DNA from: Bacteroidales bacterium
Lineage (GTDB): Bacteria; Bacteroidota; Bacteroidia; Bacteroidales; F082
Length of the DNA: 64,000 nucleotides
NCBI GenBank assembly: GCA_016284305.1
Contig: JAEEON010000026.1
Coordinates: forward strand, 1-64,000
Direction: 5' to 3'
The position numbers and the translations under genes were made by a program. The notes under the pieces were generated by a model. It did not search any database and had not been told where the DNA came from. It saw nothing but the letters and a program-made list of their open reading frames with translations. Shown here one piece after another: positions 6,001 to 51,368 of this stretch (positions within the stretch are counted from its first letter, which is position 1; every line of letters starts with the position of its first letter).

Positions 6001-9000
6001 TAGAGCCGCCTAATTTTATCATAGGAGAAATCAGCCAGTTGTTAGGCGTCAGAGGACCAACATCGTTTATGTAACTGGCAGAGGTAACACAGCCATCACC
6101 AGCATGAGTTGTGTAATTCCCACTTCCTGTATTAGTATGTTGTTGCCAAGTATATCCATCATTGTCAGCATCAAATGCAGTCCAACCTTGGAGTGTTCCG
6201 TCTTCAAAGTCATAAGTTAAAATCTCACCAGTGGAACCAGACGAAGTTCCAGCAACTATATTTCCGTTCTCTCCACCGCCATACACATTGGCGATGGTGC
6301 CACCCGTGACATTAACAAAGGTTTGACCAGTAACGGTAGCTTTGGAACCCGTTGCTGCTGACTCGCCCTTACCTGCACCATACACATCTTTCATGGTGCC
6401 ACCGGAGACATTCACCTGCGTGCCGCCATCAGAAACAGTACCTTTTTCGCCGCCGCCATACACATTATTATTAATAGTACCGCCACTGATGTTGACTGCC
6501 GTGCCTTTCGACATGTCGGTGTCTTCGCCGAGACCACCGCCAAATACATCGGTAACCGTGCCGTCGGAGACGTTCACTGTAGCCAGTTCGCTGATGACAC
6601 CCTTGGTGTCGGAACCGCCATAAACGTTTCCAGCAATGGTTCCGCCTTTCACATTCACGGTGATGGTAGCGCCTTTACTCTTATTGGCACCACCAAAAAC
6701 GTTACCGCTGATCGTTCCGCCTAAGATATGTACATCACTGCTGTTTTGGGCAAAACCATTGTTACCACCGCCATATACCGAACCTGCCACTTGGGCTTGG
6801 TCGGCCACAACCACTGTTGAGGCGTTAACATAATAGGAATTTTCGTCGTCAGTGCCATATACTTCAGCAGTGCCATAACCCGACCCAAAAAGGCCTGCAT
6901 CACTGGTTTGGTTCGCTTTACCACCAAAGTAAACACTAACATCACCATCTGTAGCTCCACCACTTGATTCGGTTCCATAACAGCCACCTGCAATCCAGCC
7001 ATCGAATGTACCGCCTGTTATAATGGTTTTACGAGTACCATACCCAGCAGAGTACTGGCCTGATCCATACAAATACCTATGAATAGTGCCACCTTTTATT
7101 CGTATCTTCAATATTTCAGTTGAAGAAGAAACGCCGTATTCAATACCTCCTGCAATACCACCTAACAAATCACCACCCAACACTTCCAATAATCTGGAAG
7201 CCAAGCAGTTATGACTATAGTGATTCTCAAAACCAACATAAACTTCTTTGTCCGCATCATTGGTTCCAAAAGTCCCACTCAAGATATGCATATTTAACTT
7301 GGTGCTTTCATTGGAGCAATCGAATGCCTTTGAAACATTAGTTGTCTCAATAGAATAAAGCTTCGTATTGGTGTTACCATTAGCTCGGTCATAGTCGCTT
7401 CCAAGAACAATATTCTCAGTAAAGGCCGATGAAGTGGTCGTCACATAAGAAGTACCACTAGTATATGATACACCATTGCCGCGAAGTGCATATATTTCTT
7501 GATATCTTCCACTTTCAACACGCACAGTGAAATCATGGCTAAAAGATGGAGTCGCGTTATAATCATCGGAATAATAACCATAAACAGCACTTGCCACATT
7601 GTTCGTGCTCGTACCTCCATACTGTACGCCACGACCAATAGTGAGATTATATCCTGCACCATTGATGTAATAATCGCTCATTCTCAAGTTCATATTCTCA
7701 ATCTTCACATCGTTGGTAGCTGTATAATTGCTACTTCTGGTTACATTACTCACCGTACCTGTACCATCAGGATTGAGGCATGATATGGTGACAGGATAAG
7801 TATAGGTATTAAGTGAAGTGCCCACCTTGAAGTTACGCTCGTAGGCATTCTTATAATCACCGCTATTTGAGACATACGAACTACTATTTACGTAAGCCTG
7901 AGCCCACAAAGCTTCAAACTCCACTTCGTTGCCCTTGGTATTACTAGTGATAAACTCGACCTCCTGGTCGGCATAAATGATACTATTATTATTGATGTTG
8001 CTACTCGTATAGGTATTGGCCCCCGCTTTGATGCTAAGACCATCACTGAGGCTCTTTACACGCCAAGCGTAGAAGCCACGGTATTCTGAACTCGAAGAAG
8101 AACTACCACCACTAAACTTCACTTGATTGAGATACGTTCCTAATGTTCCATTACTGCTAAAATTGGAAGGATTAGGATTAGTATTATCTGAATAATAATA
8201 GAGAACTCTGTCATTATTAGAATTGTATGTATAAAAATACATACGAGAAGAATAATAAGCTGACGAATTTGAATTATCGTCTACAGCAAGAATCAAATTG
8301 GAGGTTCCATTATATTCAAAAGGTGTATCAAGTGTAATCTCCGTCCAGCCATTAATAAAACTAACCGCACCCGAATACACTTGATTACTAGAAGACACTG
8401 ACACCCAATCCTTTTTACCAGTGAAGTTTGCTTTATTTGTATGCATCAAATAAATAGTCATATTTCTTGAAGATGCATTACTGGACACACGGAAAGAAAT
8501 CGTTCTGATTGTGCCAGCAGAACCAATCTCAGAAGCCAAATAAATCTGCTCACTTAAGGAATAATTATAGTAATTATAGGTTGGCAGATATTCAGCGGTA
8601 TTATTACCACTACCAATTGTTACGTCAATAGTTGGAGCTGAGGTACCACCTCCACCACTTTCCTCATACTTCGGTCTCACCTGGAACGGGTTAGGAATCA
8701 TCGTGTAAGGATAATTGCCCGAGCCATCAGCGTTGGCATTTTCCAAGGTCTTGAGATAGATGAATTGGTTCTCAGGTGCATCCGTATTCACGGCCACTTG
8801 GCTGCTGGTTACATCCGCATCAAAGGCACTGCCTGCAGGCATGTTGGCGGTGCTGGTGCTAGTCATCGTATTGGGGCCATAACCCGTGTAGGTAATCTTC
8901 ACATCCGCAGGCTTCAGGCTGTGGATCGGCTGGTCGCCATCGCTATAGTAGCTCCAGCTATGGTCTTCGAAATCGTTGAGGATGACGATGCCACCATAGG

Positions 9001-35801: not shown

Positions 35802-38800
35802 TTATCTGACCACCAGTTTGCTGTGATAGACCGTTCCCTTAGCATCGGACACCCTGATAGTATAGACGCCAGCAGCGAAGGTGTTATGGATCTCGTTGCC
35901 GTGATATTGTTCGGAGTGAACCAAGGCGCCAAGGGCATTATAAATTTCAACTTGGGCTTCATTCAGATCCAACGTGGCAGGAATCTCCATGTGGAAGTTT
36001 TGGCCGCGACTAACCGGGTTCGGGTAGAGGCTGAAGGAATTCTCTTCATCCATCACCATCTCCTCTGGTACGAAGGCACGACCTGAGACGGTACCGCTCA
36101 ACGTGACGGTAGCGGTAGCCGTACCCGTTGTCACCGTGAGAGTCTTGTTGTTGTAACTGCCTTGTGACAGCCCAGACTTCAGACGGACATAAACGTTAGC
36201 CGTCAGGAATTCGATACCAGTTGAAGGTGTAGGATCGGGTGTTGCTGGAGTGTCGCTATAAGTCAAGGTGAAGTCATCGACGTTGAGGTAGAATTGGTCG
36301 GTGCAGTTGAAGTGACGCACGGCGATATAGCCATTCTGTCCGGCATAGGCACCGAGGTCAACGGTGCATTGGTACCAATTGCCTTGAGCGCGGTCGCCAC
36401 CACTCTTGGAGCTAAGCGTCCACTCATTGAGTTTGGTGAAGCTGTTGGTATTGGTGTTGCTGGTAGTAGATACAAAGACACCGAAGTGTTCAGCTGCGTA
36501 GTTGGCATCCTGGGCGCAGGCATACATGGTGAAGGTGCCACCAAGAGGAACTTGTGGTGAGACCAGCCAGTTGTCAGGAGTCAGCGCGCCAGTACTACTG
36601 TTGTAGCTCTCGGAGGAAAGCATGTCGCTACCGCCATGGGCATTGATGCTATAGCCGCTCATCAACACCGAAGCCAGCTGCCAGTTATGTCCATCACCAT
36701 CAGCATCGATGGTGGTCCAGTTGTTCATGGTGCCTTCGAATCCCCAAGTTTGGGTGCCGCGGTCTCTGTTTCCAGTGAGGGTCACCGTATTGCCAAAGTT
36801 ACCGTTAGGCGTAGTGCTGATCTCGTAGTTGGTTGGAGCTGTGACCGTGACATTGCCACTGAGGTCGGCACCGATGACGGCAAAGCTCTGTACCTGAGAA
36901 GGACCACTGCCATACACGTAGTTGAATCCCGTCAGGTTATTCGGAGTCACCGTCAAGGTCTCGGTATTGCCTGAGGCAGTTCCTGCCATCACCAGACCCA
37001 GCTGGTTGTTGGAGGTGATGTAGGTGCCGCTGTAGGAAGATGGCGAAGCGGGATTGTAGTTGGTGTTGTCGCTATAAATTCTCATCGCCCTGTTGGCACC
37101 AGTGGAATAGACGTAGAACTTCGGTGAGTTGCTACTGCTGCTCACGTAGGATCCCGTATTGTCATCCACACCGATGACAAGGTTGCTAGTGCCGTTATAG
37201 ACAAACGGAGTGTTCAGCGTGATAATGGTCCAACCTGAAGCATTGAAGGAGACGGAGCCAGAGAACACCTTATTGGAGGCGGAGAGGCTCTCCCATCCCG
37301 TCTTGGACGTGAAGGCCGTCTTGGTGGTGGTCTTCATATAGACATCCAACGTACGGGTTGTTGACTTGGCGTTGGACACCTGGAAGGCGACGGCAGTGAT
37401 AGTGCCTGCCTGACCGATCTCAGCAGCGGTATAAATCTGCTCCGTGAACGAATACTTGTAATAAGCATATGTGGGCAGATAGGCGTTGGTGGAAGAACCG
37501 CTACCGACAGTCAGACTGGTGGAGGAACCGGAAGAGGCATTCGGTTGGAAGAGGGCAGCCACGGTGACGTTGTAAGCAGGCATGGTGAAGTGGTTGTTGG
37601 CAACATTGATGGTATTGGTCACATCACCCGTCTTATACACGATCCATTGGACGAAACTGCACCCCGAGGCAGGAGTGGCGGTCAGAGTGATGGTCTCTCC
37701 AGCGGTGGCACTGGTCTTGCTGGCCGTGATGGTGCCGTTGCTGACCGGAGCCACGGTGACATCATAATAGGTGGTGACAACCTGTTGGCTGAAGTTGGCC
37801 ACTAAGGAAGCGGCGCTGGTGACATTAAAGCTATATGTGGCATTGGTGGAGACTTGAGTACCGTTCTTTGTCCAGTTCACAAACTCATAGCCACTCTTTG
37901 CTGTAGCGGTAAGTGTCGCGGTACTGCCATGGTTGTAAGTACCCGCGCCAGTGATGGTACCACCAGCTGTTGGGTTGGCTGTTGCCGTGACATTGTAGCT
38001 GTTCAAGGTGAACACGGCGACGTAAGCCCCGTCAGCAGTAGCCGTGAAGCTATAGTTCGCGTTAGTAGAGACCTGAGTGCCGTTCTTGGTCCATTTACTG
38101 AAGGTGTATCCCGTGGCAGCGGTAGCTTTCAAGGTAACCGTACTACCCTGTTGATAGGTACCAGCGCCAGTAACGGAACCACCAGCTGTTGGGTTCGCCG
38201 TTGCGGTGATGGTATAGTTGTTGACAGTACCGCCTCCCGAAGTGGTCTTGGTGAGCAAGATCTGGTTGTTCGAGGTCACATAGGTGCCGCTATAGGAAGT
38301 CGGTGATGCAGGATTGTAGTTGGTGTTGTCATTATAGATTCTCAACGCTCTGTTAGCACCGGTGGAATAGACATAGAATTGCGGTGAGCTACTACTGCTC
38401 ACATAAGATCCGGTGTTGTCGTCCATACCGATGATAAGGTTGCTGGTACCGTCATAGACAAATGGATTGCTGAGAGTGATGGTTGTCCAACCCGAGGCGT
38501 TGAAGGTGACGGAACCCGAATAGACCTTATTGGAGGCGGCGAGGCTCTCCCATCCCGTCTTGGAGCTGAAGGCCGTCTTGGTGGTGGTCTTCATATAGAG
38601 ATCCACAGTACGGGTCGTTGACTTGGAGTTAGACACCTTGAAAGCGATTGCGGTGATGGTGCCAGCACCTCCGAGTTCAGCAGCGGTATAGATCTGTTCG
38701 GTAAGTGAGTAGTTATAATAAGCGTATGTTGGCAAATAAGCATTGGTAGAGGTGCCACTACCGATGGTCACGTCGCCGCTCGTGCCGCCGCCCGACGGAA

Positions 38801-41135
38801 TCTGGGTGAAGTTGGCGACATAGGTTGCTGATGCTGTGACATTGAAAGTATAAGTGGCATTGGTGGAGACCGTTGAGCCGTTCTTAGTCCAATTGACAAA
38901 CTGATATCCCGAAGCTGCCGTGGCCGTCAAGGTGCAGCTTGTACCAGAAGCATAAGTACCTGCACCGGTTACTGTACCACCAGCCGTTGGATTAGCGGAA
39001 GCCGTCACGGTGTAGTTGGTCGTGGTGCCGCCACCGCCGCCCACCGTGATGGTACCGAGATAGGTCACCTTGTTATAGCCAAAGACACAAAGGGTAAGAT
39101 CGCCGCTGTTGTTGCCTGGAGCGGTTAAGGTGATGGTAGCCTTGTTGTTTGCCACTGTGGCTCTACCCAGGATTTGGTGACTGGCGTTGGTGATAGTAGC
39201 CAAAGCACCATTGCCGTTGGTTACGTTGACCGTGTAGGATGTCGCATCGGATTGGATGGTGCCGGCATGGGTCACCGTCATGGCCTGAGGGGTCTTAGTA
39301 CGAAGCATCAGCGAGGGATCGCCGTAGATAATCCACGCTTGATAGGTGCCCACGGAAGCCTGGCCATTAGAACCAGTGGTGCCGTATTGGTCGAACATCT
39401 TCAACATACCATTGACTGAAGTACCAGCCAAGGTATGCTTGATATTGCTGCTATAGCTCTCCACAAGGATATCGACCATCTCGTCCTGGGCATACATCGG
39501 CGGCAGCCAAGGCTGTGAGATATAAGAGAAAGCGCCACCGACAGCACCGGTAGGTGTCAAGTCAGAGCTGCTGTAAGTGGCATGCATCCAAGCCTCGGCA
39601 AAGCAGTCGTTCTTCTGACCGATGGTGTAATTGCTACCATAAGAAGTTTCTGTGTTGTCATATTTACCCACCAAACAAGCGACCGACCAGATGAAAGGCA
39701 ACTTGTTTTTGTTGGTCAGTTGGTTGACATGGGTGTTGCTATAGTAGGCGACGCCCCACATTTGGTTATTACCGTGATTGCAGTAATTGACGATGCCGAC
39801 GCCACTATTGATGTGGTTGCTAATCGACGTAGCCGTTCCCGTGTAGCCCGAGAGATTCTCATAATCCTGATACACCGTGCTATAGCCAAAGTTAAGAAGA
39901 TCGGTGCGGATTTTGTCGATATGCTGATAGTCGTCTTCGTTGTTGTGTCCAGCGGCACCTTCCTTACGGCCGATACCATCGCCCACCTTGAGCCAGGTAT
40001 CGGATGCGGTCATGTCACGTTCATAATAGATGGAACGATTGACTTGAGTAGTGACTTGCGCTGCAGTTTGTGCAGAGAAACGACCGATGAAGATATCATT
40101 GTAATAGTCGTTACCGACGATTTGTCCATAGGCGTTGTCGCCAAGGCCCGAGTAACTGGATCCACCGCCTGAATAGGAGTAACCGGGGATCTGAGCCACA
40201 TCGCCGACAAGCAACACGTGGGCGAGGTTAGGGTTAGCGTTATACTGGTTCTTGATATAGGTCTGGATGGCCGAATAGGTGGAACCAGCGGTACTTTTGT
40301 TGACGATGGTGGTGTTGATGCCGCGGGTTCTCTTCCAATTGACGAAATCGGTCATGTAGCTGTTGAAGTTGTCGTAGCAGATGATGAGCAGGTCACCTTC
40401 TTCGCTAATGGGCGAATATTTGGCTGTTGCTGCATCGTAGTTGATGAAGTGGTTAGAGTACACATTCTTGAATTCTGGGTCGATTTTCATGGTGCTACCA
40501 CGTTGTGTCTCCATCATATTCTCTCCACCAAGGCCTTCCTTCACCATCTCGACAGTGATGTCGTAATACACTCTAAGGGTCTTGGTGACAGGGTTGTAGG
40601 CAAAAGGCTTGACCACCATATTCTGACCACGGAAGTCGCGAAGGATATAAGGTTCGTACAGGCCGACGTTCTTTTCAGGGAAGAAGGCGTCATTGGAATA
40701 GCATTCACCATAAGTATAAGGGACGCTTTGAGGGTCGATCTGACGGCTGATTTGGCCCTTTGACGGGGCTATGTCGATACCCTCGAAATCCATATATTGA
40801 GCCTCTATAACTTTGATGCCCATTCGAGCCTTATCGCCAATGATGGCGGGGATGCCAATCATGGGCATATCTGGTTCACCTTCTTGCGCCGTGCTGACGG
40901 CCTTGGGAACCGTGATGACCCATGCCTCACCACGTGGAGTGTTGACCGCTGTGGTATAAAAACCAGGCACTTTGACGTTCACCTTGATGCTATTGTCAGA
41001 TGAGGAGATAAGTTGGGTTTGGAAAGTAGCGGGAGCACCACCGAGGACCTTGTTCCACTGTGGCTTCACCTGCTCTTGAGCAAATGCCATCGAACTGATG
41101 ACAAAAAGCATTAAAAAAAGTAAGTGCTTCTTCAT
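35802..41135 (-). CDS. gingipain-like C25 cysteine protease with long adhesin tail and T9SS signal
   Basis: This 1,777-aa secreted protease has a signal peptide ending MAFAQ, a prodomain (about 20-240) and a C25 domain (about 245-620). His454 (NYCNHGNNQMWG) and Cys487 (FIWSVACLVG) are the catalytic pair; their 33-residue spacing equals that of RgpB His211/Cys244. The tail holds InlB-like B repeats (NPTAGGTVTGAGTY, four copies), two YLPTYAYYNYS modules (about 787-955 and 1207-1378), a cleaved-adhesin domain (about 1455-1630, ending AIRHFNCTDQFYLNVDD) and a type A T9SS sorting domain (last 75 residues, SLYPNPVSRGQNF). It probably digests protein at the cell surface. Arg or Lys specificity cannot be read from the sequence. 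Confidence 0.95.
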   Translation of the reverse strand: MKKHLLFLMLFVISSMAFAQEQVKPQWNKVLGGAPATFQTQLISSSDNSIKVNVKVPGFYTTAVNTPRGEAWVITVPKAVSTAQEGEPDMPMIGIPAIIGDKARMGIKVIEAQYMDFEGIDIAPSKGQISRQIDPQSVPYTYGECYSNDAFFPEKNVGLYEPYILRDFRGQNMVVKPFAYNPVTKTLRVYYDITVEMVKEGLGGENMMETQRGSTMKIDPEFKNVYSNHFINYDAATAKYSPISEEGDLLIICYDNFNSYMTDFVNWKRTRGINTTIVNKSTAGSTYSAIQTYIKNQYNANPNLAHVLLVGDVAQIPGYSYSGGGSSYSGLGDNAYGQIVGNDYYNDIFIGRFSAQTAAQVTTQVNRSIYYERDMTASDTWLKVGDGIGRKEGAAGHNNEDDYQHIDKIRTDLLNFGYSTVYQDYENLSGYTGTATSISNHINSGVGIVNYCNHGNNQMWGVAYYSNTHVNQLTNKNKLPFIWSVACLVGKYDNTETSYGSNYTIGQKNDCFAEAWMHATYSSSDLTPTGAVGGAFSYISQPWLPPMYAQDEMVDILVESYSSNIKHTLAGTSVNGMLKMFDQYGTTGSNGQASVGTYQAWIIYGDPSLMLRTKTPQAMTVTHAGTIQSDATSYTVNVTNGNGALATITNASHQILGRATVANNKATITLTAPGNNSGDLTLCVFGYNKVTYLGTITVGGGGGTTTNYTVTASANPTAGGTVTGAGTYASGTSCTLTATAASGYQFVNWTKNGSTVSTNATYTFNVTASATYVANFTQIPSGGGTSGDVTIGSGTSTNAYLPTYAYYNYSLTEQIYTAAELGGAGTITAIAFKVSNSKSTTRTVDLYMKTTTKTAFSSKTGWESLAASNKVYSGSVTFNASGWTTITLSNPFVYDGTSNLIIGMDDNTGSYVSSSSSPQFYVYSTGANRALRIYNDNTNYNPASPTSYSGTYVTSNNQILLTKTTSGGGTVNNYTITATANPTAGGSVTGAGTYQQGSTVTLKATAATGYTFSKWTKNGTQVSTNANYSFTATADGAYVAVFTLNSYNVTATANPTAGGTITGAGTYNHGSTATLTATAKSGYEFVNWTKNGTQVSTNATYSFNVTSAASLVANFSQQVVTTYYDVTVAPVSNGTITASKTSATAGETITLTATPASGCSFVQWIVYKTGDVTNTINVANNHFTMPAYNVTVAALFQPNASSGSSTSLTVGSGSSTNAYLPTYAYYKYSFTEQIYTAAEIGQAGTITAVAFQVSNAKSTTRTLDVYMKTTTKTAFTSKTGWESLSASNKVFSGSVSFNASGWTIITLNTPFVYNGTSNLVIGVDDNTGSYVSSSSNSPKFYVYSTGANRAMRIYSDNTNYNPASPSSYSGTYITSNNQLGLVMAGTASGNTETLTVTPNNLTGFNYVYGSGPSQVQSFAVIGADLSGNVTVTAPTNYEISTTPNGNFGNTVTLTGNRDRGTQTWGFEGTMNNWTTIDADGDGHNWQLASVLMSGYSINAHGGSDMLSSESYNSSTGALTPDNWLVSPQVPLGGTFTMYACAQDANYAAEHFGVFVSTTSNTNTNSFTKLNEWTLSSKSGGDRAQGNWYQCTVDLGAYAGQNGYIAVRHFNCTDQFYLNVDDFTLTYSDTPATPDPTPSTGIEFLTANVYVRLKSGLSQGSYNNKTLTVTTGTATATVTLSGTVSGRAFVPEEMVMDEENSFSLYPNPVSRGQNFHMEIPATLDLNEAQVEIYNALGALVHSEQYHGNEIHNTFAAGVYTIRVSDAKGTVYHSKLVVR
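37002..37515 (-). repeat. intragenic repeat, copy B of the YLPTYAYY module
   Basis: This segment is highly similar at DNA level to 38262-38775. It encodes one additional residue relative to that copy (an extra Asn near SSSSNSPKF). A diverged third copy is in the giant protein at about 8140-8640. Confidence 0.8.
38262..38775 (-). repeat. intragenic repeat, copy A of the YLPTYAYY module
   Basis: This is the partner of 37002-37515, about 1,260 bases away in the same gene and same orientation. Such a repeat allows slippage or recombination that would delete or duplicate the intervening B repeats. Confidence 0.8.
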
Positions 41136-43460: not shown

Positions 43461-43501
43461 GCCTCCATACTGCGCTGTGCATGTGTGTAGTTTTTGAGAT
43501 C

Positions 43502-43518
43502 GCGTCTCTTCGAGACGC
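43502..43518. repeat. 7-3-7 hairpin at the helicase 5' end
   Basis: GCGTCTC-TTC-GAGACGC is a perfect 7-bp stem with a 3-base loop. The same layout recurs at 56588-56604 and in the 103-bp array. It lies in the leader if the helicase starts at 43536. Confidence 0.75.
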
Positions 43519-43535
43519 CTGGCAGCGAGAAACAG

Positions 43536-45437
43536 ATGTTTGAGAGTTTGCTGAAACAGTCAGAGCTGCTCCGCAAGGAGTATGAATTCGAGAAGGCAGC
43601 CTACCTCGAAGCAGTGAGGCGCGCCCCGCTGAATGGCGAGGTAGCCGAGGGCGATTGTTGGTATCCGATACGACTGGGAAACACCTCTTACAACATCGCC
43701 AACCAGCTGGTAGTAGATGTGTTTTACGACGGGGCACTTCCTGAAGAGTCGAGCAGCGACTTCGAGCCGGGCAAGATCGTCAACTTCTTCAGCATCGAAA
43801 ACGGACAGATGCGGGTTCTCAACTACAACTGCGTGGTCAGCAGCATCCGCGAATACCGCATGGAGGTGTCGGTAAACAACATGCCCACCATGATGGCCTT
43901 GCAAAACCTTGCCTCAAGGGGCAGCATCGGGGTCCTGCTGGGCATCGACGATTACACTTATCAGGTGATGCAAAGCAGCCTAAGACAGGTTAAGGAACGC
44001 AACGACGAGGACTTCGTCCACCTCCGCAGTGTACTCATCGGTGAGGCACAACCCTCGTTCAGAGACTTACGTCACACATCCATGCCGTGGCTTAATGCCA
44101 GCCAAAACGCTGCCGTGGCCAAGGTGCTCAACGCCCGTGAAACCGCCATCGTGCATGGCCCTCCCGGAACCGGCAAGACCACCACCCTGGTGGAAGCCAT
44201 CAGCGAGACCTTGAAACGTGAGTTACAAGTGCTGGTATGCGCCCCAAGTAATGCTGCCGTCGATTGGATCAGCGAACAGCTCTTTCGCCGAGGCATCCCT
44301 GTACTTCGCATCGGCAATCCATTGAGAATCAACGACGTGATGATGCAGTGCTCCTATGAATACCGCTATGCCAACCATCCCGATTACCTGGAGTTGTTCG
44401 GAGTGCGTTCAGCAATCCGGGAAATCAAGAGCCATCCTAGGCTGGGAGAGAAAGAGCATAACCAGATCCGCAAGCTTCAACATCGCGAGATGGAGTTGGA
44501 GGTGAAGATTCGCGAGGAGCTCTTCGCCAACTCAGGAGTCATTGCCTGCACCCTCATCGGCAGTGCCAACAGGCTGTTGGAGCGACGCCACTTCGGCACC
44601 GTATTCATCGACGAGGCTGCCCAAGCCCTCGAAGCCGCCTGTTGGACCGCCATCCTCAAGGCCGACCGTGTCGTCTTCGCAGGAGACCATCAACAGTTGC
44701 CACCCACGGTGAAATGCAAGGAGGCAGGACACGAAGGCCTGGAACGCACATTGATGCAGAAAGTGGTGAAAAGCAAACCTTCATGTGTCACCCTGTTGGA
44801 TGTGCAATACCGCATGAACCAAGATATCATGGAGTTCTCATCGCGGCATTTCTACCATGGCAAACTTAAGGCTGACCCTTCGGTAGCTGAACGACTCGTC
44901 TCCCCTATCGACAAGCCGCTGATGTGGATCGACACCTCGCTATGCGACTTCGGTGAGCAGCAAAGCCGTAGCCTCAGCCGCAGCAACCATGAAGAAGCCA
45001 AGCTGCTGATGAAAACCCTAATGGACTATGTGAAGCTCATCGGCATGGAACATCTACTGCGGGAACAAACCGACTTCGGCATCATCTCACCTTACAAAGC
45101 ACAAGTAAGATTGCTTCGCAAATATCTCAGAAACAACAAGATGCTTAAGCCGTTGCGTCATCAAATCTCGGTCAACACCGTCGATGGATTCCAAGGACAA
45201 GAGCGCGATGTGATCCTCATCAGCATGGTGCGCGACAACGAGAGTGGCAACATCGGCTTTCTTAACGATCTTCGCCGAATGAATGTCGCCATCACCAGAG
45301 CCCGGATGAAACTCATCATCTTCGGCAACGCTGAAACCTTGAGCAAGACCAAATTCTATGAGAAACTGGTGGCTTATTTTGAAGATCGAGGAGATTTTGT
45401 CAAGGTAAATTCTTTTCAAGAAACACTTGACAAATGA
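43536..45437 (+). CDS. SF1B (UPF1/IGHMBP2-like) helicase
   Basis: The 633-aa protein has an N-terminal beta-barrel-like region (about 1-190) and a helicase core: HGPPGTGKTTTLVEA (I), VLVCAPSNAAVDWISE (Ia), FIDEAAQALEAA (II), FAGDHQQLPPTV (III), DVQYRMNQDIMEFSS (IV), VDGFQGQERDVILISM (V) and NVAITRARMKLIIFG (VI). UPF1-like helicases move 5' to 3' on RNA or DNA. I prefer ATG 43536 to ATG 43494, because the earlier start would place the 43502-43518 hairpin inside the coding region. Role not known; Bacteroidota often carry such a gene. The next gene starts 44 bases downstream. Confidence 0.9.
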   Translation: MFESLLKQSELLRKEYEFEKAAYLEAVRRAPLNGEVAEGDCWYPIRLGNTSYNIANQLVVDVFYDGALPEESSSDFEPGKIVNFFSIENGQMRVLNYNCVVSSIREYRMEVSVNNMPTMMALQNLASRGSIGVLLGIDDYTYQVMQSSLRQVKERNDEDFVHLRSVLIGEAQPSFRDLRHTSMPWLNASQNAAVAKVLNARETAIVHGPPGTGKTTTLVEAISETLKRELQVLVCAPSNAAVDWISEQLFRRGIPVLRIGNPLRINDVMMQCSYEYRYANHPDYLELFGVRSAIREIKSHPRLGEKEHNQIRKLQHREMELEVKIREELFANSGVIACTLIGSANRLLERRHFGTVFIDEAAQALEAACWTAILKADRVVFAGDHQQLPPTVKCKEAGHEGLERTLMQKVVKSKPSCVTLLDVQYRMNQDIMEFSSRHFYHGKLKADPSVAERLVSPIDKPLMWIDTSLCDFGEQQSRSLSRSNHEEAKLLMKTLMDYVKLIGMEHLLREQTDFGIISPYKAQVRLLRKYLRNNKMLKPLRHQISVNTVDGFQGQERDVILISMVRDNESGNIGFLNDLRRMNVAITRARMKLIIFGNAETLSKTKFYEKLVAYFEDRGDFVKVNSFQETLDK

Positions 45438-45456
45438 AACTATTTTACTAATTTTG
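45427..45456 (+). promoter_or_regulatory. promoter of the receiver-nuclease gene
   Basis: TTG (45427-45429), a 19-base spacer and TAATTTTG (45449-45456) match the Bacteroidota promoter consensus well. The -33 part lies inside the last codons of the helicase gene. The nuclease gene can therefore be transcribed alone. Confidence 0.7.
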
Positions 45457-45481
45457 CAGTAAAATAGACTATATAAACAAA

Positions 45482-46378
45482 ATGAACAGATCCATATTAA
45501 TTATCGAAGAAGATGAACATCAAGCACTAAGCTTACTTACTGCCCTTCGTGACACGATGACTGACTGTGACTTCTCTTACGCTTCCAACGCGAACGACAT
45601 CATGGCCAAAATCATTACTCAATACTATTCCATCGCCATCGTTGACATCCAAATGGATCATTCCAATTTCGATGGTTTTATGGTGATGGATCACATCATT
45701 AACACCAATCCATACACGAAGATCATTGTAGTATCTGACTTCAATAACGAATCCATACAACGAATATCAGAGTATCTCACCAAAGGAAACATCCTAACCA
45801 TAACAGAGAAAAAAACATATCAGACATGGATTCCTGAATTAAGTTCCTTGATTCGTGATTATTTTCAAAAAGACATCAATCCAATAGCCGTACAAATCCT
45901 GGAAGATCTTTACGCTCAGGCGAAAAACGAGACAAATATCCACAAAAAAGGCAGGATGTTCGAAGAGTTTGTGGTAGGGCTGTTTCGGCAAATGGGATTC
46001 ATCCATATTGATACACGCATTCACGATAAAGCCGAGAATGAGATTGACATCATCGTCAGAAACGACCTCACCGATCCATTTTTCAACAAGTTTGGGCGAT
46101 ATGTCTTTGTGGAGTGTAAAAACAGACCTGAAATAGGATTCACAAAGAATGATTTCATCGTGTTCAACAAAAAGGTTTCGTCATCGAATGGCGACAGCAA
46201 CCTTGGCGTTGTATTTACCACAGGTCACATTAGCAGGGCTGTGTATTTGGAGGCCTTGCGGGAATCAGAAAAAGGAGTCAAGATCATCTATTTAGGGTCC
46301 GCTGAGATCACCCGACTCATCCACACACCCAATATGCTCGACGAGTTCAAAGAGATCATTGACCGTCAAGTGGCGTAA
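45482..46378 (+). CDS. response-regulator receiver domain fused to a PD-(D/E)XK (Mrr-like) nuclease
   Basis: This 298-aa cytoplasmic protein has an unusual domain order. Residues 1-125 are a receiver domain: acidic pocket E10/D11, phospho-acceptor D55 (IVDIQMD), S85 and K110. A helical linker leads to residues about 150-260, a restriction-endonuclease-like fold: GRMFEEFVVGLFRQMGF (E161/E162), D189 (NEIDIIV), then E211 and K213 (YVFVECKN). The D-x(n)-ExK set needed for metal-dependent DNA cleavage is complete. So phosphorylation may gate a nuclease; this is inferred. There is no histidine kinase next to it. It has its own promoter and overlaps the 3' end of menA by 13 bases. Confidence 0.85.
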   Translation: MNRSILIIEEDEHQALSLLTALRDTMTDCDFSYASNANDIMAKIITQYYSIAIVDIQMDHSNFDGFMVMDHIINTNPYTKIIVVSDFNNESIQRISEYLTKGNILTITEKKTYQTWIPELSSLIRDYFQKDINPIAVQILEDLYAQAKNETNIHKKGRMFEEFVVGLFRQMGFIHIDTRIHDKAENEIDIIVRNDLTDPFFNKFGRYVFVECKNRPEIGFTKNDFIVFNKKVSSSNGDSNLGVVFTTGHISRAVYLEALRESEKGVKIIYLGSAEITRLIHTPNMLDEFKEIIDRQVA

Positions 46379-50678: not shown

Positions 50679-51368
50679 TTATTCTTTGACCATCAGCTTG
50701 AAGCCGATGCCGTGTACGTTGACCAGTTCCACGTTAGGTTCATCTTTGAAGAACTTGCGCAACTTGGTGATATAAACGTCCATGGAACGGGCGTTGAAGT
50801 ACGAGTCCTCATACCACACCTTGTTGAGGGCTGTAGTACGTTCGAGGGTCTCATTCATGTTCTCACACAAGAGTAAGAGGAGGTCTGCCTCTTTGGAAGT
50901 GAGTTTTCTGCTCGTGTCGCCTTTGATCAAGAGATGCCGAGGCGCGTCGAAAGTGTAGGAGCCCAAGGTGAATGTCGTCGGGGTTGGTGCATCGTACGAT
51001 GCTCTCTTGAAAACAGCGTGGATGCGCATCAGCAGTTCGTCCATGCTAAAAGGCTTGGTAATGTAGTCGTCCGCACCCAAGTTAAAACCTTCAATTACGT
51101 CTTTTTGGGTCGTTTTTGCCGTCAAAAAAATGATCGGCACACGTTTGTCGTTTTTTTTGACTTCAGTTGACAAAGTGAAACCATCCATAAGAGGCATCAT
51201 CACATCAAAAATACAGAAATTAAAATTGCCGTCCTTGAATGCCTGAAGGGCCTCTTCCCCATTGGCACACAAAGTGACGGGGATGTCCTTCGCTTCGAGA
51301 TACTTCTTCAGGATGACACCAAGATTTTTGTCATCTTCAGCCAATAGGATGTTGATCTTTTGTGTCAT
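50679..51368 (-). CDS. rprY: OmpR-family response regulator, RprY-like
   Basis: This 229-aa regulator has a receiver domain (acidic E11/D12, phospho-acceptor D55, T83, K105) and a winged-helix DNA-binding domain (about 130-229, RKLTSKEADLLLLLCENM, RSMDVYITKLRKFF, VHGIGFKLMV). It matches RprY of Bacteroides and Porphyromonas, which controls redox and stress genes. The kinase gene lies 63 bases upstream on the same strand, an RprX/RprY order. Confidence 0.92.
   Translation of the reverse strand: MTQKINILLAEDDKNLGVILKKYLEAKDIPVTLCANGEEALQAFKDGNFNFCIFDVMMPLMDGFTLSTEVKKNDKRVPIIFLTAKTTQKDVIEGFNLGADDYITKPFSMDELLMRIHAVFKRASYDAPTPTTFTLGSYTFDAPRHLLIKGDTSRKLTSKEADLLLLLCENMNETLERTTALNKVWYEDSYFNARSMDVYITKLRKFFKDEPNVELVNVHGIGFKLMVKE

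Follow-up and report, generated by a model that had tools for sequence, protein, structure and literature searches.

A receiver domain fused to a PD-(D/E)XK nuclease: a candidate two-gene signalling cassette of Bacteroidota and an orphan copy in a Bacteroidales genome

Can a two-component phosphate signal end in a nuclease? The question is raised by a gene at positions 45482-46378 of contig JAEEON010000026.1 of a Bacteroidales bacterium (assembly GCA_016284305.1; GTDB family F082), of which the 64,000 nucleotides analysed here (positions 1 to 64,000) are called the window. An earlier note had proposed that this gene encodes a receiver (REC) domain joined directly to an Mrr-like nuclease and that phosphorylation gates the nuclease. 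The fusion is genuine, and related REC-nucleases sit directly behind a small histidine kinase gene in four of 11 loci. The best explanation of the whole, held with moderate confidence, is a phosphate-switched two-component nuclease cassette of which the window copy is a domesticated orphan.

Architecture and conservation of the REC-nuclease

The open reading frame (ORF) has an ATG start, is uninterrupted and yields a product of 298 amino acids; the opposite strand, read in register, is interrupted by stops. Residues 5-91 match the Pfam domain Response_reg (36.5 bits, cut-off 30.2) and residues 157-260 match Mrr_cat (23.5 bits, cut-off 21). The parts of the gene, all on the + strand, are as follows.

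45482..46378, +, REC-PD-(D/E)XK nuclease gene, 298 amino acids plus stop (open frame; Pfam Response_reg and Mrr_cat)
45482..45871, +, receiver domain, residues 1-130
45506-45511, +, receiver acidic pair E9-E10, replacing D-D
45644-45646, +, receiver D55
45734-45736, +, receiver S85
45809-45811, +, receiver K110
45881..45928, +, linker helix, residues 134-149 (AlphaFold2 model)
45938..46375, +, PD-(D/E)XK (Mrr_cat) nuclease domain, residues 153-298
45962-45964, +, nuclease E161
46040-46042, +, nuclease E187
46046-46048, +, nuclease D189
46112-46114, +, nuclease E211
46118-46120, +, nuclease K213

A full-length AlphaFold2 model made from seven aligned family members (predicted local distance difference test [pLDDT] 82.4, predicted template modelling score [pTM] 0.57) has a (beta-alpha)5 receiver of the CheY fold at residues 1-130, a helix at 134-149 and a nuclease core after it. 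Together with the Pfam match, this bears out the full receiver that had been claimed, with D55, S85 and K110 in their places. Because a fold search with the full-length model probed the receiver only, the nuclease half was modelled separately (pLDDT 86.0, pTM 0.84). It is predicted to have a restriction-endonuclease fold of the FokI/BspD6I type, and its best fold matches are the cleaving enzymes BspD6I, FokI, EcoT38I and AspBHI. A sequence search of the PDB with a nuclease profile (A8) gave no match at E-values up to 1; in a viral structure library, the best matches listed were largely receivers and kinases.

The fusion does not appear to be a chance product, as the same architecture is kept in 10 further full-length members, found in Bacteroidota genomes or on IMG/VR contigs. 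The relatives of the window protein (P0001 when used as a search query) are as follows.

L002-L005, Bacteroidales metagenome-assembled genomes (genome collection scan)
L006, Pedobacter nyackensis (genome collection scan)
L027 and L028, IMG/VR virus contigs
L059, genome G753 (whole-genome search)
L064, genome G1202 (whole-genome search)
L069, genome G1530 (whole-genome search)

L007-L010 and L060 duplicate the sequences of L002-L005 and L006. Two members are counted by full-length similarity: L002, in which both Pfam matches fall just or well under the cut-offs, and L064, which has no Mrr_cat match at an E-value of 0.01.

In the alignment of the 11 proteins, E161, E187, D189, E211, C212 and K213 are invariant (11/11). 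The proposed Mrr-like core of E161/E162, D189, E211 and K213 is thus conserved except for E162, which is present in the window protein and is R, N or H in other members. Neither outcome named in the earlier note as a refutation, a different C-terminal fold or loss of D189, E211 and K213 from homologues, was observed. The receiver has diverged faster than the nuclease half: the window protein is 81-85% identical to L002-L005 in the nuclease and 50-58% identical in the receiver. The ratio of nonsynonymous to synonymous substitution rates (dN/dS) is 0.027 for the REC-nucleases of L059 and L069 (nuclease part 0.014, receiver part 0.044) and 0.036-0.053 among L003, L004 and L005; synonymous sites are saturated between the window gene and L003, hence values are given for measurable pairs only. 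These ratios show that the REC-nuclease is under strong purifying selection.

The kinase-paired members

The REC-nuclease gene lies directly behind a small histidine kinase gene on two virus contigs (L027 and L028) and in two chromosomes (L059 and L069). The two genes are separated by 2 bp in L027 and overlap by 23 bp in L028 and by 4 bp in each of L059 and L069. The three aligned kinases (L027, L028 and L059) are 262-270 amino acids long and have in common a basic start, an NP motif, an H-box HD[MI]KN[AS]IQ and an ATP-binding domain. A Pfam scan of these three finds HATPase_c in each and names no HisKA-type domain and no sensor domain. As the hydropathy of the four kinases shows no membrane-grade hydrophobic segment (maximum KD19 1.46) and no sensor domain is recognised, the signal that they receive is probably cytoplasmic. 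A third virus contig, L046, terminates within such a kinase gene. The earlier statement that no cognate kinase is adjacent thus applies to the window and not to the family, in which the four paired copies follow a dedicated kinase.

L059 and L069 come from different genera. Their stretches (18-19 kb) have one long match in common, 1743 bp at 87% identity, which consists of both genes with approximately 20 bp on each side and nothing else nearby. Because just the pair is shared across genera, it has been transferred and moves as a unit, and is probably self-sufficient. The kinase, like the REC-nuclease, is under purifying selection (dN/dS 0.028 between L059 and L069). The ancestral unit was probably a mobile two-gene cassette of kinase and REC-nuclease, and the family tree requires at least two changes between the paired and orphan states.

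The pair in L027 is flanked by a head-morphogenesis gene on one side and a neck or tail-completion gene on the other; its G+C content is 37-39%, compared to 51% for the contig. In L028, it lies on the + strand amid genes that are mostly on the - strand. The kinase gene of L046 is preceded by terminase, portal and head-protein-like genes. The neighbours in L059 and L069 look chromosomal by eye.

Of the residues that make up the phosphorylation site of the receiver, the D-D pair is present in 9/11 aligned proteins, D55 in 10/11, S85 in 11/11 and K110 in 10/11. The complete pocket (D-D-D-S-K) is intact in all four kinase-paired members and in four of the seven orphans. It is altered in three orphans (the window copy, L002 and L064, the last with D55N) and in 0/4 paired members. 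The proposed phosphorylation gating, which would link a two-component signal to a nuclease, is well supported for the family because four of the 11 members are kinase-paired; as discussed below, it is doubtful for the window copy itself.

Taken together, these sequences suggest that REC-nucleases form a small family in Bacteroidota and their phages. The family is rare: full-length members were found in 5/173 genomes of the window's family, 1/395 of a class sample (the window's own genome), 2/395 of a phylum sample (its own and G753), 2/301 of the family of L006's genome and 2/397 of the family of G753. Other matched genomes were dropped: 13 of 18 in the window-family search (incomplete alignments, in most cases over the receiver), G192 in the class search (a fragment with stops) and nine of 11 in the phylum search (partial, with E-values of 4e-6 or worse). 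Beyond this phylum, coverage came only from a single-protein scan of genome contigs, sensitive to close relatives alone, and from scans of plasmid, phage and IMG/VR sequences. Among 50,697 phage records there was no match to P0001 (E-value 1e-5) or to the L028 protein (E-value 1e-3). In 72,556 plasmid records P0001 had a single match, a Kozakia relative with the nuclease domain only; the L028 protein matched this relative as well and, over the receiver only, a protein in Bacillus. The IMG/VR scan with P0001 alone gave members in 0/12 stretches, the scan with alignments gave two contigs (2/88 stretches), wider alignments gave the same two (2/105 and 2/276), and with kinase alignments these two came up again, together with a third.

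G1186 and G1089 were left out of the member count, having the nuclease domain only. Two such relatives outside the family, the Kozakia plasmid (L024) and G1186, keep the E...D...ExK residues. In L024 (2337-6413), SIR2 and HerA genes directly follow the gene for a 331-amino-acid Mrr_cat nuclease, whose N-terminal part is unassigned and which is possibly a third member of a SIR2-HerA-type cluster. In the G1186 locus (L065, 3089-7752), a SIR2-Piwi-like gene (1060 amino acids), a TIR-like gene and a gene for a 177-amino-acid Mrr_cat nuclease stand in a row. The arrangement looks like an Argonaute-type defence cluster to which a nuclease has been added; the matches to Piwi and TIR are below the Pfam cut-offs. 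The TIR-like protein (6321-7217; 298 amino acids) has a long C-terminal part beyond its TIR-like region with no Pfam name.

The orphan copy in the window

The window copy is an orphan, and no matching kinase was found in its draft genome. The ORF list of the window contains no kinase adjoining the gene, and when three of the paired kinases were compared by tblastn with the window and with L002-L006, nothing appeared under an E-value of 0.5, either as an adjacent gene or as a relic. A kinase search of the genome, which contains a single match to the REC-nuclease, found long open frames at just two matches (1082 and 837 amino acids); a search with the N-terminal half of the kinase (A7) gave nothing, which proves little as there was no positive-control genome. 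L032 and L034, small kinases encoded in the L002 and L003 genomes, were rejected as partners since they follow genes that resemble, by eye, regulators of the sigma-54 type, and so look like parts of other systems.

The pocket of the window protein is also changed: it reads E9-E10, D55, S85 and K110, the second acidic residue being E10 and not D, while its sister L002 has E9-G10 and K110R. These observations bear on the simplest alternative, that phosphorylation does gate the window protein in the ordinary way, with a distant kinase or acetyl phosphate as the donor. D55, S85 and K110 are in place, but the acidic pair is replaced in both sisters and no cognate-type kinase was found in the draft genome. 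The rprX-like kinase approximately 5 kb away, named in the earlier note as the closest, is a poor candidate because its own regulator gene (50679-51368) adjoins it. This alternative is considered unlikely, and the gate of the window copy has probably been weakened or lost.

Upstream of the gene, which has a G+C content of 41.0% (window 50.2%), is one further feature.

45427..45456, +, promoter-like boxes: TTG at 45427 and TAATTTTG at 45449-45456 (TAnnTTTG type), 33 bp before the ATG

TAnnTTTG, which we take to be a promoter motif in Bacteroidota, occurs 33-38 bp before the start in 5/5 genus copies (the window, L002-L005; chance rate not computed), so these orphans seem to own promoters. The box was rejected as a feature of the whole family: it is found upstream of the L046 kinase and at -107 in L059, and is missing within 160 bp in L006, L064, L027, L028 and L069. 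A perfect 10-bp inverted repeat with an 8-base loop (45440-45467) overlies the promoter-like box in the window and is the only such site there at up to three mismatches (0.01 expected by shuffles). It is possibly an operator or a hairpin; it was not found upstream in L002-L005 and was discarded as a conserved operator of the family.

The helicase gene upstream (43494-45437; Pfam AAA_11/AAA_12) was likewise rejected as a partner. It has a different position in the L003 locus and is missing from the ORFs listed near the REC-nuclease gene in L002 and L005 (the L004 stretch stops at the gene), and the REC-nuclease carries its own promoter-like boxes. With the neighbouring UbiA-type gene as query, 58/60 genomes of the genus had a match and 30 loci were retrieved. 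No REC-nuclease lies near this gene in the 29 non-window loci, within flanks of up to 1.5 kb (shorter in four loci); one of the 29, G122, does have a REC-nuclease (L005), farther away. In L073, the UbiA-type gene lies next to the helicase gene at a distance of approximately 300 bp; this is the site of the insertion seen in the window, here unoccupied.

In the family tree, the five copies from this genus group together as a single clade (support 99/99). In the window, L002, L003 and L005, the orphan gene occupies three different positions in one locus of 10-15 kb around TrxB-, GSCFA- and UbiA-like genes, which suggests local gene movement at a hot spot within the locus. The names TrxB, GSCFA, UbiA, DEAD and rprX were assigned by eye. 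The window also encodes a surface-type protein of 1777 amino acids (35802-41135) with repeated blocks and a C-terminal sorting-like end, resembling by eye a C25-type peptidase; the neighbours in L002 and L003 include large proteins similar to it.

Known systems and proposed function

The nearest known designs are Detocs and PorX. The original Detocs paper reportedly includes some effectors other than PNP. Both Detocs and the REC-nucleases join two-component signalling to a receiver protein that carries an enzyme effector. Detocs is described as a three-gene family (PMC11249213), whereas L027, L028, L059 and L069 have two genes. That the pair is a true Detocs in which a nuclease replaces the ATP-cleaving PNP effector follows the same idea of a kinase plus a REC-effector protein, but is quite unlikely: the ORF lists (cut-offs of 60-100 amino acids) contain no separate receiver gene beside the four pairs, the kinases are short and the effector is a PD-(D/E)XK nuclease instead of PNP. 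No kinase or further receiver gene directly adjoins the window gene. PorX is a response regulator carrying a phosphodiesterase output (PMC12839542); this output is PglZ and not PD-(D/E)XK, and PorX is by its entry title a type 9 secretion regulator, not a mobile pair.

Several other systems share single elements with the REC-nucleases. Card1/Can2 and other CARF-PD-(D/E)XK nucleases have a CARF sensor that binds cyclic oligoadenylate, whereas the sensor of the REC-nuclease is a receiver with a phospho-acceptor aspartate. Mrr_cat restriction endonucleases have the same Pfam domain, to which the window match is above the cut-off, but the usual Mrr-type protein carries a DNA-recognition domain and not a receiver. 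The DUF4263 nuclease domain of Shedu (SduA) was not found. HEF_HK/Response_reg_2 pairs (PF19191/PF19192) are two-component-like and linked to restriction-modification genes, and their regulator holds no other known domain (PMC8011034); the REC-nuclease adds a nuclease. Neither P0001 (E-values up to 10) nor the kinases and REC-nucleases of L027 and L028 (E-values up to 1) matched PF19191/PF19192, in a search where HMMER filters remove most matches above an E-value of approximately 0.1. HATPase and REC appear in the figure key of predicted systems in DefensePredictor (PMC13092281), which may overlap the kinase/REC-nuclease pair. No description of a receiver fused to a PD-(D/E)XK nuclease was found in the literature searched, which covered few subscription papers; none occurs in the available portions of PMC7159879, PMC7824862, PMC10952713, PMC12405507, PMC12839542, PMC13092281 and PMC8011034.

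Sequence and models establish the architecture, the folds, the catalytic residues, the kinase pairing in four of 11 members, its transfer between two genera, the lack of an adjacent kinase in the window and the changed pocket there; phosphotransfer, a dimer switch, DNA as the substrate and a role in defence are inferred. The ancestral unit would be a short cytoplasmic histidine kinase and a REC-nuclease, encoded by overlapping or nearly overlapping genes. The kinase would sense an internal event, probably the entry of a phage or plasmid, and hand phosphate to D55 of the receiver. Receivers pair on phosphorylation, and FokI requires pairing to cut; here, pairing of the phosphorylated receivers would unite two nuclease domains in a FokI-like manner and the DNA would be cut. 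Phages and chromosomes alike would carry the pair as a mobile cassette, a distribution in keeping with superinfection exclusion or defence. In the window lineage, the gene would have been retained without the kinase, with its own promoter-like sequence and a changed phosphate pocket. The window protein is most likely domesticated, its receiver serving mainly as a pairing or ligand-sensing module or as a weak phosphate acceptor.

A number of observations weigh against this model. Seven of the 11 members have no adjacent kinase, so pairing is not obligatory, and the four paired loci contain one close pair (L059/L069). The link between the orphan state and an altered pocket is not significant (Fisher p 0.21, or 0.29 with near relatives collapsed). 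The relative placement of the two domains in the full-length structure model is unreliable, as its pTM indicates, and the absence of a kinase from the window's genome is bounded by a draft that is 89.4% complete. Of seven proteins tested in the flanks of L028, only one is assigned to a named phage family, that of terminase, and five have no match at all. Conflict-type company is seen for two of the three nuclease-only relatives, G1089 being the third; no dense defence cluster was seen around any family member, and PADLOC (PADLOC-DB 2.0.0) gave weak hits only.

The gene pair could alternatively be toxin-antitoxin-like, with the kinase protein restraining the REC-nuclease by binding or dephosphorylation and its loss freeing the nuclease. 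The pair is small, overlapping or adjoining, mobile and phage-carried, with the kinase gene upstream, as this explanation would expect. It is nevertheless improbable, as the seven members that lack a kinase persist in chromosomes with their nuclease residues intact, which argues that the nuclease alone is tolerated unless those copies have been tamed. That the restriction-endonuclease fold serves repair or recombination, or binds DNA under receiver control and does not cut, is likewise improbable given the E...D...ExK set invariant in 11/11 members and kept in two outside relatives, and the cleaving enzymes that are its best fold matches.

Under the switched-cassette model, defence or superinfection exclusion is the likeliest purpose, because of the carriage by phages, the mobility of the pair and the company of two nuclease-domain relatives. 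The fuller reading is offered more tentatively: a minimal two-gene defence or superinfection-exclusion system of Bacteroidota phages and chromosomes, in which a soluble histidine kinase switches a DNA nuclease directly, through phosphorylation of the fused receiver, with the window copy as a later, kinase-less stage tamed by the host.

The usual output of a two-component system is the control of genes. A phosphate signal that instead led to the cutting of DNA would act quickly and dangerously, and would have to be kept under tight restraint. The kinase-paired copies are mobile, apparently cytoplasmic and only approximately 1.7 kb long, so that kinase, receiver and nuclease are open to purification and every step between phosphorylation and DNA cleavage could be followed in a single reaction. 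Orphans with altered phosphate pockets may reveal how a switch is rewired after the loss of its kinase, and phages that carry the pair would bring nucleases under signalling control into phage-phage and phage-host conflict.
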